Source: Thermoanaerobaculales bacterium
GTDB lineage: Bacteria > Acidobacteriota > Thermoanaerobaculia > Thermoanaerobaculales > Sulfomarinibacteraceae
Length of the DNA stretch: 64,000 nucleotides
Direction of reading: 5' to 3'
Assembly: GCA_025456145.1 (NCBI GenBank)
Contig: JALOLD010000001.1
Coordinates: 124,001-188,000 of the forward strand
A model generated the notes under the pieces. It worked only from the letters and a program-made list of their open reading frames with translations. It had not been told where the DNA came from and made no database searches. Every line of letters starts with the position of its first letter. Positions within the stretch are counted from its first letter, which is position 1. Positions 57,992-63,708 of this stretch are shown here, one piece after another. A program made the position numbers and the translations under genes.

Positions 57992-58390
57992 TCAGGTCGG
58001 GGCGCCGGTCAGCCTGGTCAGGCACTCGACGAGGGCCTGCTGGTCGACCGGCTTGGCGAGCACGGCGTCCGGGCCGCGCTCGAGCCCGTGGCCCCGGAGG
58101 TAGGCGCGGCCGTTATCCTGGACGATGGAGTCGTTGCCGGTGAGGACCACCACCGGCACCGACGACCACCGCTCGTGCTGCCGGATGGTGACGAGGAGGT
58201 CGAGACCGGAGCGGCCGGGCATGATGACGTCGACGATGACGACGTCGGGCTCGAACTCGTCGAGGGCGGCGAGGGCGGAGGAGGAGCGGTTCGCCGAGGA
58301 GACCTGGTACCCGTGGTCCTCGAGGAGGAACCCGAGGTACTCGAGGATGTCGGGGTCGTCATCGACCACGAGGACCCGTGTCGCACCCAC
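57992..58390 (-). CDS. Stand-alone response-regulator receiver protein
   Basis: RVLVVDDDPDILEYLGFLLEDHGYQVSSANRSSSALAALDEFEPDVVIVDVIMPGRSGLDLLVTIRQ...VLAKPVDQQAL. Confidence 0.95.
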   Translation of the reverse strand: MGATRVLVVDDDPDILEYLGFLLEDHGYQVSSANRSSSALAALDEFEPDVVIVDVIMPGRSGLDLLVTIRQHERWSSVPVVVLTGNDSIVQDNGRAYLRGHGLERGPDAVLAKPVDQQALVECLTRLTGAPT

Positions 58391-58393
58391 CGA

Positions 58394-59971
58394 TCAGCTC
58401 TCGGTCCTCGGCGTCCCGGCGATCCGACCGTCGGGGGTCGTGCTCGGCCGCGCCGCCAGCGGGATCCGGACGGTGAAGCGGGTCCCCCGTCCGACCTCGG
58501 ACTCGACCTCGATGGTCCCACCGTGCTTGTCGACGATCTTGTTGGAGATGAAGAGGCCGAGCCCGGTGCCCTTGAGGCCCTTCGACGAGAAGAAGAGCGA
58601 GAAGATCTTCTCGCGGGTCTCCCGGTCCATCCCGACGCCGTCGTCGGCCACCTCGATGACCATCCAGGGCTCGGACCGCCGGGCCCTGACCTCGACCGTG
58701 TGGCCCGGCTTGTCGCCGTCCATCCGGCAGGCGTCGAGCGAGTTCTCGAGCAGGTTGATGAGCATCGCCCGGATCGCCTGCGGGTCGCCGTCGAAGCGGC
58801 CGATCTCCTCGGGCGCGTCGAACCGGATCTCGACCCCGATCTCCCTCGCCTTCTTCTCCACGCTCTCTCTCAGATCGCCGATCATCGCGGCGAGCGCGAT
58901 CGGCTCGACGGTCAGCTCGCGGTCCTTGGCGTAGTAGAGGATGTCGAGCACCATGGACCGTACCCGGTCCACGTTGCGTTGCACCATCTCCCAGCCCTTC
59001 TTGACCCGCTCCGGCTTGTCCCGCTCGAAGCCCGAGTTGACCATGTAGATGCCGCCGTCGAGCCCGGTCAGCAACCCCTTGATGCCGTGCGAGATCGAGC
59101 CGACGAGTAGCCCGATCGAGGTCAGCTGGTCCTGCAGCTGTCGGATCTGGGTGATGTCGACGCCCATCTCGATGACCGCCTCGACGATCCCCTCGGCGTT
59201 GCGCAGCGGAGCGGTGGTGACCAGGAGATTGAGCTCCTGGCCGTCCTTCGACAGCACCGACGCCTCGTAGTCGTGGGTCCGCCCGGTCTCGAAGGTGCTC
59301 ATCATCGGGCACGACAGACACTGCTCCTCGCGGTGCTTGTAGACCCGGAAGCACTCCTCGCCGATCCCGTCGCCGAAAACCTCGCGGAACCGGCGGTTGG
59401 CGTGCTGGATGACCCGGTCCGGACCCTGGACGGTGATGAAGCAGGGGACCTCCTCGAAGAGCTGGGCGAGCCGCTCCCGGCTCTGGTGGAGCTCCTCCTG
59501 GAGCTCCTTGACCTCGGCGATGTCGGTGTGCATCTCCATCACCGCGACGATCTCGCCTGAGGCGTCCCGAACCGGCGTCGTGTGCACCATCACCGGAACC
59601 TGGCGGCCGCCGGATGCGGTCAGCAGCTGCTCCGACGGGTGGTTCTGGCCGTCGCCGAAGGTCGCCTCGACCGGGCACTCGGGGCAGATCTCCTCGCGGT
59701 CCTTGTAGACCTTGAAGCAGTGCTGGCCGATCCGCTCGCCGAAGTCCTCGCGGAACCGCCGGTTGCCGGCGACGATCCGGAAGTCCCGGTCGTGGATCGA
59801 GAGGTAGCACGGCATCTCGTCCCAGTACCGCTGGTACATGAGCGAATCGGTGAGCTCGTGCGAGTTCACTTCGACGCCGTGCACCGCTCGTGCCGGGCGA
59901 GGGGCCCGACCGCCGGCCGCGCCGGGCGACGGCGCGGCCGGGTCGAGGCGGAGGGGCGATCCGTCGTCCAC
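58394..59971 (-). CDS. PAS-PAS histidine kinase with Cys motifs
   Basis: Two PAS domains each with C-x10-C-x2-CP (CFKVYKDREEICPECP; CFRVYKHREEQCLSCP); H box VGSISHGIKGLLTGLDGG; NLLENSLDAC; VADDGVGMD; KGTGLGLFISNKIV. GTG start 2 nt after the upstream stop. Confidence 0.92.
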   Translation of the reverse strand: MDDGSPLRLDPAAPSPGAAGGRAPRPARAVHGVEVNSHELTDSLMYQRYWDEMPCYLSIHDRDFRIVAGNRRFREDFGERIGQHCFKVYKDREEICPECPVEATFGDGQNHPSEQLLTASGGRQVPVMVHTTPVRDASGEIVAVMEMHTDIAEVKELQEELHQSRERLAQLFEEVPCFITVQGPDRVIQHANRRFREVFGDGIGEECFRVYKHREEQCLSCPMMSTFETGRTHDYEASVLSKDGQELNLLVTTAPLRNAEGIVEAVIEMGVDITQIRQLQDQLTSIGLLVGSISHGIKGLLTGLDGGIYMVNSGFERDKPERVKKGWEMVQRNVDRVRSMVLDILYYAKDRELTVEPIALAAMIGDLRESVEKKAREIGVEIRFDAPEEIGRFDGDPQAIRAMLINLLENSLDACRMDGDKPGHTVEVRARRSEPWMVIEVADDGVGMDRETREKIFSLFFSSKGLKGTGLGLFISNKIVDKHGGTIEVESEVGRGTRFTVRIPLAARPSTTPDGRIAGTPRTES

Positions 59972-59973
59972 GG

Positions 59974-61782
59974 TCAGTTCGCCTTCGCTTCGCGATGCTC
60001 GATGATGTGGGCGACATAGGACACGAGCTTGTCCTCGTCGACCGGCTTGTTGAGGTAGCCCTCGGGGGGCGGCACGGGCCGGTCGTAGATCACCTGGCGG
60101 AACTCGGGGTGCCCGGTCACCACGCACACCGGGATCTCCTGGGTCTCCTCCGTCCGACGCAGCTCGACGAAGGCGTCGACCCCGCTCTTGCCGGGCATCG
60201 ACAGGTCGAGGGAGATGAGATCGGGCTTGAAGGTCCTCGCCTTGGCGAGGCACTCGTTGCCGTCGGCCGCCTGCTCGACCTCGGCGCCGGCGTCCTCGAA
60301 CACGGTCACCAGGAAGGTCCTGATGTCCTCCTCGTCGTCGACCACCAGCACCTTGCGGCCGGCGAGCGGCGCGGCGGCGGCGGGGGCGGCGACGGGGACC
60401 GGGCGGGCGGCCGCCGCCGGTTCCTCGCTCGCGACCGCGGCGACGGCGACCGGCCGACTCTTCATCACGTAGCACTCCTCGAGGACGAGCGCGTCGGCGA
60501 CGAGGTCGACGAGCTGCTTGACCTCGCAGCCGAGCTTGTAGTGCTTGATCAGGTCGGACAGGCCGTCGACGCAGTTGTGGCAGCTCGTGACCACGATCTC
60601 GGCGCCGGTCTCTCGGATCTGATTGGCCTTGATCTGGGCCGACTTGAGGCGCCGCGGAGTGTACTCGGACATCGACATCGCGCCGCCGCCGCCGGTGCAG
60701 CAGAAGTTCTCGGCGCGGTTCGGGTACATCTCCTGGAAGTCGGTGGTCACCAGTCGGAGCAGCTCGCGCGGCTCCTCGTAGAAGCCGCAGCTGCGGGCGT
60801 TGTTGCACGAGTCGTGGAAGGTCACCCGCTTGGGGTTCTTGGTCGGGTCGACGACGATCTTGCCCTCCTTGATGTAGTTGAGCATGGTGATGACCGAGCT
60901 CTCCATCGGGAAGGCCTGGGCGTCGCCCGACCAGTTGACGCCCTCGCAACGGGTCGAGCGGTAGCCGTGGCCGCACTCGGAGATGACGATCTTGTCGACG
61001 CCGAGCTCGCGCGCCTTGTCGTACTCGCGCTTGGCGGAGGCGCCGCCGAGCCCGTCATCGCCCGAGAAGAGGCCGAAGTTGGTGTTGTCCCAGCCCTCCG
61101 AGGGCATGGTCCAGTCCTCGCCGGCGGCCCAGAAGATCAGCGCCGCCTCCTTGATCGTCCGCGGGTCGTACTTCACCTCGCGGGGGTTGATCGCATACAT
61201 CACCCGGGCGCCGGGCTTGTCGACCGGGATCGCGGCCTCGCCGTGGCCGAGGTCCTCCTCGAGCTCCTCGGACATCCACTCGAGGGTGTCGAGGTAGTCC
61301 TCCTTGAGGACGCCCATCTGGTTGCCGAGCTCCCACTGGTCCTTCGACACGACGCGGACGCCCTCCGGCATGACCCCGACGTGGGTCAGCAGACCGCGCA
61401 TGATCCGGTTGAGGGTCGCGGTGTCGACGCCCATTGGGCAGTTGATCGTGCAGCGGCGGCAGTTGGTGCAGGTCCCGAAGGCGATGTCCTTGAGCTTGTC
61501 GAGGTCGTCGTCGGTCAGCGGCGCCTTGTCGGCGCCGACCCACCATGGGAACACGCTGCCCGTCCAGTCGTGGTTGGCCTTGAACAGCTTGCGCACCTGA
61601 TCGGCCTTGTACGACGGCGTCATCTTGGGGTCGTCGGGGTGGGACAGGACGTAGTGGCAGCACTCGTTGCACATCCCGCAGTGGACGCAGCCGACCAGCG
61701 AGCCGACGACCTGGCGGTTCAGCTTCCGCGCGAGCTGCTCTTCCATCATCTTGATCTTGTGGGTCTTGGCTGGTTTGCTCAT
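59974..61782 (-). CDS. HdrD/DsrK-like Fe-S oxidoreductase fused to a C-terminal response-regulator receiver domain
   Basis: CVHCGMCNECCHYV; CTNCRRCTINCPMGVD; FHDSCNNARSCGFYEEPRELLR...ENFCCTGGGGAMSMSEYTPRR...VVTSCHNCVDGLSDLIKHY; Ala/Pro linker; KVLVVDDEEDIRTFLVTVFEDAGAEVEQAADGNECLAKARTFKPDLISLDLSMPGKSGVDAF...CVVTGH...LNKPVDEDKL. Confidence 0.94.
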   Translation of the reverse strand: MSKPAKTHKIKMMEEQLARKLNRQVVGSLVGCVHCGMCNECCHYVLSHPDDPKMTPSYKADQVRKLFKANHDWTGSVFPWWVGADKAPLTDDDLDKLKDIAFGTCTNCRRCTINCPMGVDTATLNRIMRGLLTHVGVMPEGVRVVSKDQWELGNQMGVLKEDYLDTLEWMSEELEEDLGHGEAAIPVDKPGARVMYAINPREVKYDPRTIKEAALIFWAAGEDWTMPSEGWDNTNFGLFSGDDGLGGASAKREYDKARELGVDKIVISECGHGYRSTRCEGVNWSGDAQAFPMESSVITMLNYIKEGKIVVDPTKNPKRVTFHDSCNNARSCGFYEEPRELLRLVTTDFQEMYPNRAENFCCTGGGGAMSMSEYTPRRLKSAQIKANQIRETGAEIVVTSCHNCVDGLSDLIKHYKLGCEVKQLVDLVADALVLEECYVMKSRPVAVAAVASEEPAAAARPVPVAAPAAAAPLAGRKVLVVDDEEDIRTFLVTVFEDAGAEVEQAADGNECLAKARTFKPDLISLDLSMPGKSGVDAFVELRRTEETQEIPVCVVTGHPEFRQVIYDRPVPPPEGYLNKPVDEDKLVSYVAHIIEHREAKAN

Positions 61783-61791
61783 GGCTGGCTC

Positions 61792-62478
61792 CTATCCACG
61801 GGCGATCGGATAGCTGCCCCGGTGACCGAGGGTGCGGCCGATCCAGAGACGGGTGAAGGGGTAGTAGAGGTAGTGGGAGATCTTGGAGAACGGGACGTAG
61901 ATCAGGAAGAAGCTGGTGAGGAAGAGGTAGGCCACCAGGAGGTTGACGCTCTCGAAGCCCGCGACGCCCGCGAGATGGGCCTGGGTCACCGCGCCGAGAC
62001 CGAACCAGATGGTCAGCATGAACAGCGAGAAGTAGTCGTCGGGGGTGCTGATGAGCTTCATCACCGGTCTGAACAGCCGCCGGAAGACCCGGTAGACGGC
62101 CACCCCAAACGCCGCGACCAGCGCGACGCCGCAGACCCAGGCGAAGGGCCTGGCGGCGACCAGGCCCGGAGCGATGGTGCTGAGGAAGGCGAGCGAAATC
62201 CCGGCGACCACGCCGATGTGGAAGATCACGAAGGTCAGGTAGAAGGCGAAGCCCTTCCGGGTGCTCTCCATCGACCAGGGCATGGCCACGTTGAACAGCG
62301 AGTAGAAGCCGCCGCGCTTCGCGTTCGTCCTCGCCGGCGAGCCGGGCGCCGACCTGTCGACCCCGGGCTTGAACTTGAACAGCCAGCGCAGCCGCATCGT
62401 GTAGACGACCGCCATGACGATCAGGGCGATCCAGTGGACAACCTCGGCGGTGTGCAGCAGTGAGCTCGACTCGTGCAT
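61792..62478 (-). CDS. b-type cytochrome-like membrane subunit (NarI/DsrM/TmcC-like)
   Basis: HTAEVVHWIALIVMAVVYTMRLRWLFKF; FYLTFVIFHIGVVAGISLAFL; SLFMLTIWFGLGAVTQAH; YVPFSKISHYLYYPFTRLWIGRTLGHRG. Adjacent to the Fe-S subunit. Confidence 0.82.
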   Translation of the reverse strand: MHESSSLLHTAEVVHWIALIVMAVVYTMRLRWLFKFKPGVDRSAPGSPARTNAKRGGFYSLFNVAMPWSMESTRKGFAFYLTFVIFHIGVVAGISLAFLSTIAPGLVAARPFAWVCGVALVAAFGVAVYRVFRRLFRPVMKLISTPDDYFSLFMLTIWFGLGAVTQAHLAGVAGFESVNLLVAYLFLTSFFLIYVPFSKISHYLYYPFTRLWIGRTLGHRGSYPIARG

Positions 62479-62479
62479 G

Positions 62480-63007
62480 TCACGCTCCTCCTTCGAGCTT
62501 GGCGGTGAACGGCCCGATCTCACGCGGGTCCTGGACCACGATGAGGACGTCCTCGAGCCCGCCGCCATTGGCCAGATGGCGGCTGATGACGTCGACCATG
62601 ACCTTGGCGCAGAGGTCCATCGGCACCTGGTACATGCCGGTGCCGATCGGTGGGAAGGCGAGCTGCTTGATGCCCTTCTCCTCAGCCACCTTGAGCGCCG
62701 AGCTCACCGCCCTCTCGAGCTTCCCGGCCTCGTCCTCCTCGCGGAACTTGGGGCCGTTGACGTGGATGATGTGCTCCGCCTTGAGGGCGCCGGCCTGGGT
62801 CACCACCGCCTCGCCCGTGGGCACCGAGCCGTGCGTGTCGAGCTCCTTCTGGATGACGATTCCGCCGCGCTGCTGGATGGCGCCACCGAAACCCGAGCCC
62901 AGCTTGGCGTCCTCGGTGATGTCGAAGACGAAGGCCTCGACCTCGAGGTCGGTGATGTCGCCACGGACCATCCTGAGCCGCTTACTGCCGATCGCTCGCT
63001 CCACCAT
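62480..63007 (-). CDS. Macro domain protein (ADP-ribose-binding/hydrolase type)
   Basis: RLRMVRGDITDLEVEAFVFDITEDAKLGSGFGGAIQQRGGIVIQKEL...GEAVVTQAGALKAEHIIHVNGPKF...IKQLAFPPIGTGMYQVPMDLCAKVMVDVI. SD AGGAGG. Confidence 0.92.
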   Translation of the reverse strand: MVERAIGSKRLRMVRGDITDLEVEAFVFDITEDAKLGSGFGGAIQQRGGIVIQKELDTHGSVPTGEAVVTQAGALKAEHIIHVNGPKFREEDEAGKLERAVSSALKVAEEKGIKQLAFPPIGTGMYQVPMDLCAKVMVDVISRHLANGGGLEDVLIVVQDPREIGPFTAKLEGGA

Positions 63008-63070
63008 GACATTCCTCCTGATACCGATCATCGAACCCTCCGGGCCGCGCCGTCCGCGGCGGCCCGGTCG

Positions 63071-63547
63071 TCAATCCCCCGGCGGCCGGTCGACCGCCGT
63101 TGCCAGCTGCAATCCCAGATCGGGGCCCATGCATCGCGTCCACGACGGGTCGAGCAGGTCCGCCAGGGTGAAGTCGTCGAGGACCTCGGCGATCCGCCGG
63201 TTGATCAGCGAGTAGACCACCCGGCACTCGCAGAACTCGGCCCGCAGGCAGGTGTCCGGCGCCTCGACGCAGTCGACGACGCAGATCGGGCCGATCGACG
63301 CCTCGATGATCTGCCGGATCGTGATCTCCGCAGCCGGCCGGGCGAGCTGGTAGCCGCCCGATCGTCCGGCCACGCTGCGTACCAGACCGGCCGAGCGCAA
63401 GGCCGGCGCGAGCTGCTCGAGATAACCGTGCGAGATCCCGGTGCGATCGGCGACCACCGACAGGCTGACCGGGCTCTTCGGGTCTCCGAACCGTGCGATG
63501 TCGAGCATCAGCCGGAGGGCGTAGCGACCGCGGGTCGAGATCCTCAT
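63071..63547 (-). CDS. Rrf2-family transcriptional regulator with Cys cluster
   Basis: MRISTRGRYALRLMLDIARFGDPKSPVSLSVVADRTGISHGYLEQLAPALRSAGLVRSVAGRSGGYQLARPAAEITIRQIIEASIG...CVVDCVEAPDTCLRAEFCECRV. Confidence 0.95.
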   Translation of the reverse strand: MRISTRGRYALRLMLDIARFGDPKSPVSLSVVADRTGISHGYLEQLAPALRSAGLVRSVAGRSGGYQLARPAAEITIRQIIEASIGPICVVDCVEAPDTCLRAEFCECRVVYSLINRRIAEVLDDFTLADLLDPSWTRCMGPDLGLQLATAVDRPPGD

Positions 63548-63556
63548 CTCAAGCAG

Positions 63557-63584
63557 ATTCTAATCAATAAATCCTACCTGTCAA
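63557..63584 (-). promoter_or_regulatory. Sigma-70 promoter of the Rrf2 operon
   Basis: Minus strand TTGACA-16 nt-TAGAAT; the predicted TSS lies within about 4 nt of the ATG at 63547. Confidence 0.65.
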
Positions 63585-63708
63585 CTAAGTATTAATTCAA
63601 GCATAACGAATCTCAATCTCGACACCGGATCCGGTTGCCGCCCGACCGCCGCGATGCTATCGTTGAACGCACCGAGTCCCGGGCCGCGGGATCGGTCCTG
63701 GAGGCAGC

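Follow-up and report, generated by a model that had tools for sequence, protein, structure and literature searches.

A deeply conserved operon joining a membrane cytochrome b and a receiver-fused Fe-S subunit to its own histidine kinase

Why a membrane electron-transfer pair should share an operon with a histidine kinase, receivers, a macrodomain and an Rrf2 regulator is the question raised by a gene cluster near the end of a 64,000-nucleotide stretch of Thermoanaerobaculales DNA (the window). An earlier note, made from the sequence alone, had described the cluster as a six-gene redox-phosphorelay operon. The layout, conservation, residues and genomic neighbours of the operon were analysed, and the possible functions were weighed against them.

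Layout and conservation of the operon

All six same-strand ORFs were confirmed as genes of the minus strand, with the domains assigned to them in the earlier note (Table 1). The short intergenic gaps that it reported were borne out as 39 nt (63 nt with the later macrodomain start), 1, 9, 2 and 3 nt, and the promoter claimed ahead of Rrf2 and the divergent receiver gene were both present, the latter at the same position in 7 of 10 orthologous loci. The cytochrome b gene starts at an ATG with a GGAGG Shine-Dalgarno sequence. The kinase ORF starts at a GTG 2 nt after the Fe-S gene, and kinase homology begins near GTG 59869 or ATG 59839, about 35-45 codons inside the ORF. An Rfam scan of the window gave no match.

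Table 1. Features of the operon and its upstream flank, in positions of the window.
Feature	Position	Strand	Evidence or remark
Stand-alone receiver, without output domain	57992..58390	-	PF00072 8.4e-24; conserved downstream
PAS-PAS histidine kinase	58394..59971	-	PAS x2 + HATPase_c
Fe-S/CCG subunit (TmcB/HmcF/DsrK superfamily) with C-terminal receiver	59974..61782	-	Fer4_8 + CCG + Response_reg
Membrane cytochrome b-like subunit (HmcE/TmcC-like), ~5 TM	61792..62478	-	Weak NCBIfam matches, His columns, hydropathy
Macrodomain protein, 183 aa	62480..63031 (alternative start 63007)	-	PF01661 4.9e-27
Rrf2-family regulator, 158 aa	63071..63547	-	Pfam PF02082 2.7e-33
Sigma-70-like promoter TTGACA-N16-TAGAAT	63557..63584	-	11/12 matches, ahead of Rrf2
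Imperfect inverted repeat CTTAGTTGACAGGTAGGA	63572..63589	-	Overlaps -35 element; conserved upstream of Rrf2
Divergent stand-alone receiver, 127 aa	63709..64000, extends beyond window end	+	Response_reg domain

Confinement of the gene order to a single genome, which the earlier note had named as an outcome that would speak against the operon, was not seen. The order Rrf2, macrodomain, cytochrome b, Fe-S/receiver fusion, kinase, receiver is retained in nine relatives from two families, in which the fusion is 55-88% identical; the exceptions are G010, which lacks the macrodomain, and G013, which is cut by a contig end. It is also kept in most of 76 further loci. These were obtained by scanning a single genome for each species, in which at least 244 relatives were detected; the best 80 loci were taken, and four that repeat the nine relatives were removed. 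Counted over the loci with enough flank among these best 80 of at least 244, cytochrome b lies ahead of the Fe-S subunit in 68/68, the macrodomain is present and adjoins the cytochrome in 59/66, the receiver is fused in 68/76, the kinase is found in 55/60, the downstream receiver in 41/59 and Rrf2 in 11/57. These counts define a conserved core of macrodomain, cytochrome b, CCG-REC, kinase and receiver. By title, and MAG titles can be wrong, the best 80 loci span more than 10 phyla (Acidobacteriota, Zixibacteria, Desulfobacterota, Myxococcota, Planctomycetota, Ignavibacteria/Kapabacteria, Calditrichota, Nitrospirota, Elusimicrobia and others). The operon is real and deeply conserved.

Rrf2 is one among several alternative regulators of the operon. 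The others include a PAS-sigma54-type activator or kinase relative (a cluster in 18 loci) and an HTH_17/MerR-like protein rich in cysteines (a cluster in 15 loci). The cysteines of the latter lie in its middle part (L093:6867-7640 and 14 other loci), and in loci without Rrf2 its gene usually lies ahead of the macrodomain gene. The macrodomain is missing from basal members (L126, L127, L129, L131, L133, L134), and the receiver from some members (L122-L124, L145-L149), so both are dispensable for the core enzyme.

The electron-transfer subunits and the macrodomain

Fe-S proteins of the HdrB/D type carry the CCG cysteine motif Cx31-39CCx35-36CxxC. This motif was found in the Fe-S subunit as C326-x34-C361C362-x38-C401xxC404 (PF02754 5e-14), the second spacing being 2 residues above the range. 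It is invariant in 66 homologues, as are two CX2CX2CX3C (cubane) motifs and residues D483, D526 and K579 of the receiver domain (residues ~474-600). Against the NCBIfam models the subunit scored 315.8 bits for TmcB (NF045724, cut-off 735), 315.8 bits for HmcF (NF045711, cut-off 750) and 242.6 bits for DsrK (NF045796, cut-off 400), and all three identities were rejected on these scores. The other TmcB-like copy of the same genome reached 710 bits against the TmcB cut-off of 735. In a FastTree phylogeny of 120 CCG sequences the subunit forms its own clade, sister to that copy and separate from the DsrK-like ones. The fusion was modelled by AF2 (pLDDT 85.5; linker 451-468 below 50), and the model matched EtfD, LutA, HdrB and receiver domains. 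Among solved structures the Fe-S part has its nearest homologue in EtfD, a membrane Fe-S protein of another kind, which counts against reading the subunit as part of a DsrC oxidoreductase.

The cytochrome b subunit matched NCBIfam HmcE (9e-12) and TmcC (2e-9), both far under the cut-off; no match was obtained in Pfam, or with its profile among PDB sequences. Its hydropathy profile indicates roughly five hydrophobic helices, and His87 and His202 are the sole invariant histidines. This single conserved pair suggests that the subunit probably holds one haem b. A gene for a TmcA-type multihaem cytochrome c was absent from the window ORFs and from the recurrent operon neighbours. The proposal that an HdrD/DsrK-like Fe-S subunit and a roughly five-helix membrane cytochrome share an operon with their own two-component system was thus supported. 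Its HdrD/DsrK-type reading of the electron transfer needed correction in that TmcB/HmcF are the nearest relatives and DsrC, which it had not proposed, is the likeliest target.

The macrodomain was modelled by AF2 as a confident macro fold (pLDDT 93.9), nearest to macroH2A (TM 0.89), which is an ADP-ribose reader and no hydrolase. In an alignment of 62 sequences, NAAN is replaced by FYA/FDIT and GGGVDGAI by GSGFGxAI, so that the catalytic Asn and the loop of MacroD-type hydrolases are both missing. Because the catalytic motif is replaced, and the model resembles ADP-ribose readers, the linked NAD/ADP-ribose chemistry suggested in the earlier note found no support. Most likely this protein is an accessory without catalytic activity and with a putative nucleotide ligand.

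Regulatory proteins and the association with DsrC

In an alignment of 43 kinases, H261 in SISHGIKG, N376 of the N box, the G boxes and a C-x10-C-x2-C motif in both PAS domains are invariant. With D483, D526 and K579 of the fused receiver, the kinase residues place the two proteins in a two-component system. An output domain was found by domain search in none of the three receivers (fused, downstream and divergent). The receivers without output domain, together with the invariant kinase and receiver residues, therefore suggest control of protein and not of genes.

The Rrf2 protein scored 115 bits with PF02082 (cut-off 30) and remained under the IscR and CymR equivalog cut-offs; its four cysteines (93, 100, 106, 108) are conserved in 10/10 orthologues. 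A dyad, CCTA(G/C)TTGACA(A/G)(C/G)TAGGA, covers the -35 box at 10/10 orthologous loci with some decay. It occurs once per genome, upstream of Rrf2, in the nine genomes searched, and no second site that would extend the Rrf2 regulon beyond the operon was seen in them. The single dyad therefore fits Rrf2 as a local autoregulator, and the inverted repeat is a probable Rrf2 autoregulatory site.

DsrC is a sulfur carrier in sulfite reduction. DsrAB and DsrC are present in the genome of the window operon, which was searched by stretches. Among the 50 genomes reached through operon loci, DsrA was above the cut-off in 44 and absent at that cut-off in 6. The receiver-fused form occurred in 13 of the 396 genomes of a phylum sample, and DsrA in 12 of these 13 versus 31/396 overall (Fisher p=7e-14); within the order, DsrA was present in 9/10 receiver-fused genomes versus 19/38 (p=0.004), both p-values being optimistic because the compared genomes are related and not independent. 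At least 11 loci have dsr genes beside the operon. It is divergent from dsrAB in L047/G036, embedded with dsrA, dsrN, dsrC and dsrMKJOP genes in L068, L069, L079, L090, L092 and L110, and placed amid dsrAB-N-C and DsrMKJOP-type clusters in Syntrophaceae. The window's own locus has no adjacent dsr gene.

DsrA gave no match in any of the ten phylum-sample genomes with the receiver-less form. DsrC was nearby in 10/10 of the receiver-less loci that were read (L049-L053 from the relatives, L145-L149 from the phylum sample), with both C-terminal functional cysteines, and adjacent to or a few kb from the cytochrome/Fe-S pair. That the pair accompanies DsrC in Acidobacteriota without DsrA suggests a DsrC chemistry separate from sulfite reduction. 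A DsrC-like paralogue with a shifted second cysteine (LFPCGxVRGAYxxAGLPRPxGC) was observed near the operon at L077:13069-13401, L094:1814-2101 and L123:10422-10745. From the dsr linkage and the DsrC neighbours, that is, from neighbourhood and co-occurrence, DsrC is taken as the most likely partner of the Fe-S subunit. TmcB-type CCG proteins have been predicted to interact with DsrC (PMC10553843), DsrC trisulfide is reduced by DsrMK(JOP) (PMC10504309), and members of the Thermoanaerobaculia capable of complete sulfate reduction have been described (PMC8528874).

Proposed function and comparison with known systems

With moderate confidence, we propose that the operon encodes an oxidoreductase module of the menaquinol:DsrC type, which its own kinase would switch via the fused receiver, with Rrf2 as an autoregulator acting at the dyad. 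It would be a small membrane-bound respiratory unit resembling DsrMK/TmcBC. Cytochrome b would exchange electrons with the menaquinone pool, and the cytoplasmic Fe-S subunit would receive them and use its CCG cluster to reduce (or oxidise) the thiol carrier DsrC. The kinase, a putative redox sensor by its Cys-rich PAS domains, would phosphorylate the receiver fused to the Fe-S subunit, and phosphorylation would switch enzyme activity or docking directly and not via transcription. The stand-alone receivers may be phosphate sinks or relays, and Rrf2 would govern its own operon via the dyad over the promoter. Counting against the proposal are the lack of an adjacent dsr gene at the window's own locus, the six of 50 genomes in which DsrA is not above the cut-off, and the members that do without the macrodomain or the receiver. 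A wider form of the proposal, a widespread respiratory DsrC oxidoreductase through whose enzyme-borne receiver the kinase gates sulfur respiration while the macrodomain supplies a nucleotide signal, is put forward only tentatively.

The cytochrome/Fe-S pair might instead be no respiratory enzyme and read the redox state of quinone or DsrC, signalling through the kinase and receivers to other dsr functions. The fused receiver, the two further receivers and the invariant Cys motifs in both PAS domains would suit such a sensor, and since the genome already has a DsrK-like protein and a full Tmc-like pair, it could afford to devote a second enzyme to sensing. However, output domains are missing from all three receivers, the Fe-S and CCG cysteines show no variation, the receiver-less and macro-less cousins near DsrC resemble plain enzymes, and the dyad ahead of Rrf2 is the only such site in each of the nine genomes searched; a sensor function is therefore considered unlikely.

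It is quite improbable that the operon encodes an Hmc/Tmc-type complex whose electron partner is a periplasmic cytochrome c with its gene elsewhere, the usual regulators being fused and rearranged. The equal TmcB and HmcF scores (316 bits each), the sister position to TmcB in the tree, DVU0259_DivK as the closest NCBIfam model of the receiver, and rrf1/rrf2 in hmc (PMC10924467) all favour it, but both scores are under their cut-offs and a cytochrome c gene is missing from the operon and its recurrent neighbours. Active NAD/ADP-ribose chemistry, with the macrodomain removing ADP-ribose or O-acetyl-ADP-ribose within redox control, would agree with a real macrodomain fold so regularly adjoining the cytochrome; it is made very improbable by the replacement of both motifs across the macrodomain family and by a best fold match that is a reader and not a hydrolase.

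The menaquinol:DsrC module with a fused switch would bear on the regulation of electron flow to DsrC and sulfite, which is poorly known. The bacteria with the operon, from more than 10 phyla by title, are nearly all sulfite-reducing, and the switch would place their sulfur respiration under a two-component system. If true, a kinase-receiver pair hard-wired to the enzyme would be a direct post-translational control of dissimilatory sulfur respiration in many dsrAB-bearing lineages. The arrangement macrodomain, cytochrome b, CCG-REC and kinase could serve as a marker for uncultured sulfur reducers.

Compared with known systems, the operon shares with DsrMK (menaquinol:DsrC-trisulfide) a cytochrome b with a CCG Fe-S subunit, dsr linkage and DsrC neighbours, but its Fe-S subunit fails the DsrK cut-off (243 versus 400) and the same clusters hold separate DsrM- and DsrK-like genes. 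The Fe-S clade of the Tmc complex (TmcABCD) is sister to the operon's subunit, and the Tmc locus of this genome likewise has two receivers and a kinase of the same family (326 bits to the window-kinase profile); in contrast, the operon has no cytochrome c, its receiver is fused to the Fe-S subunit, a macrodomain and Rrf2 are added, and the score is 316 bits versus the TmcB cut-off of 735. That Tmc locus (L142 and L143; G000:C1:66822-80645), immediately ahead of dsrAB, comprises a multihaem c, the two receivers, the kinase and a PAS protein. It is analogous to D. vulgaris, in which the kinase/receiver genes DVU0258/DVU0259 are tmc-linked. Literature searches for DVU0258/DVU0259 and for a macro domain together with dsrAB found no paper, and the receiver fusion, the macrodomain and the breadth of the operon appear undescribed in the literature searched. 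Rrf1 is a receiver, and Rrf2 is the founder of its family. According to PMC10924467, which cites Keon 1997, the hmc operon is regulated by rrf1 and rrf2, so that an HmcE/HmcF-like pair, an Rrf2 and a receiver-type regulator likewise occur in one locus; the present operon differs in lacking HmcA-D, in its fused receiver, in holding the kinase and macrodomain inside the operon, and in its score (316 bits versus 750). The earlier note knew of no described system with this exact combination, whereas the pairing of Rrf2 with a receiver has precedents in hmc rrf1/rrf2 and in the genome's own Tmc locus. On these precedents, the closest prior state is Tmc/Hmc with linked regulators.
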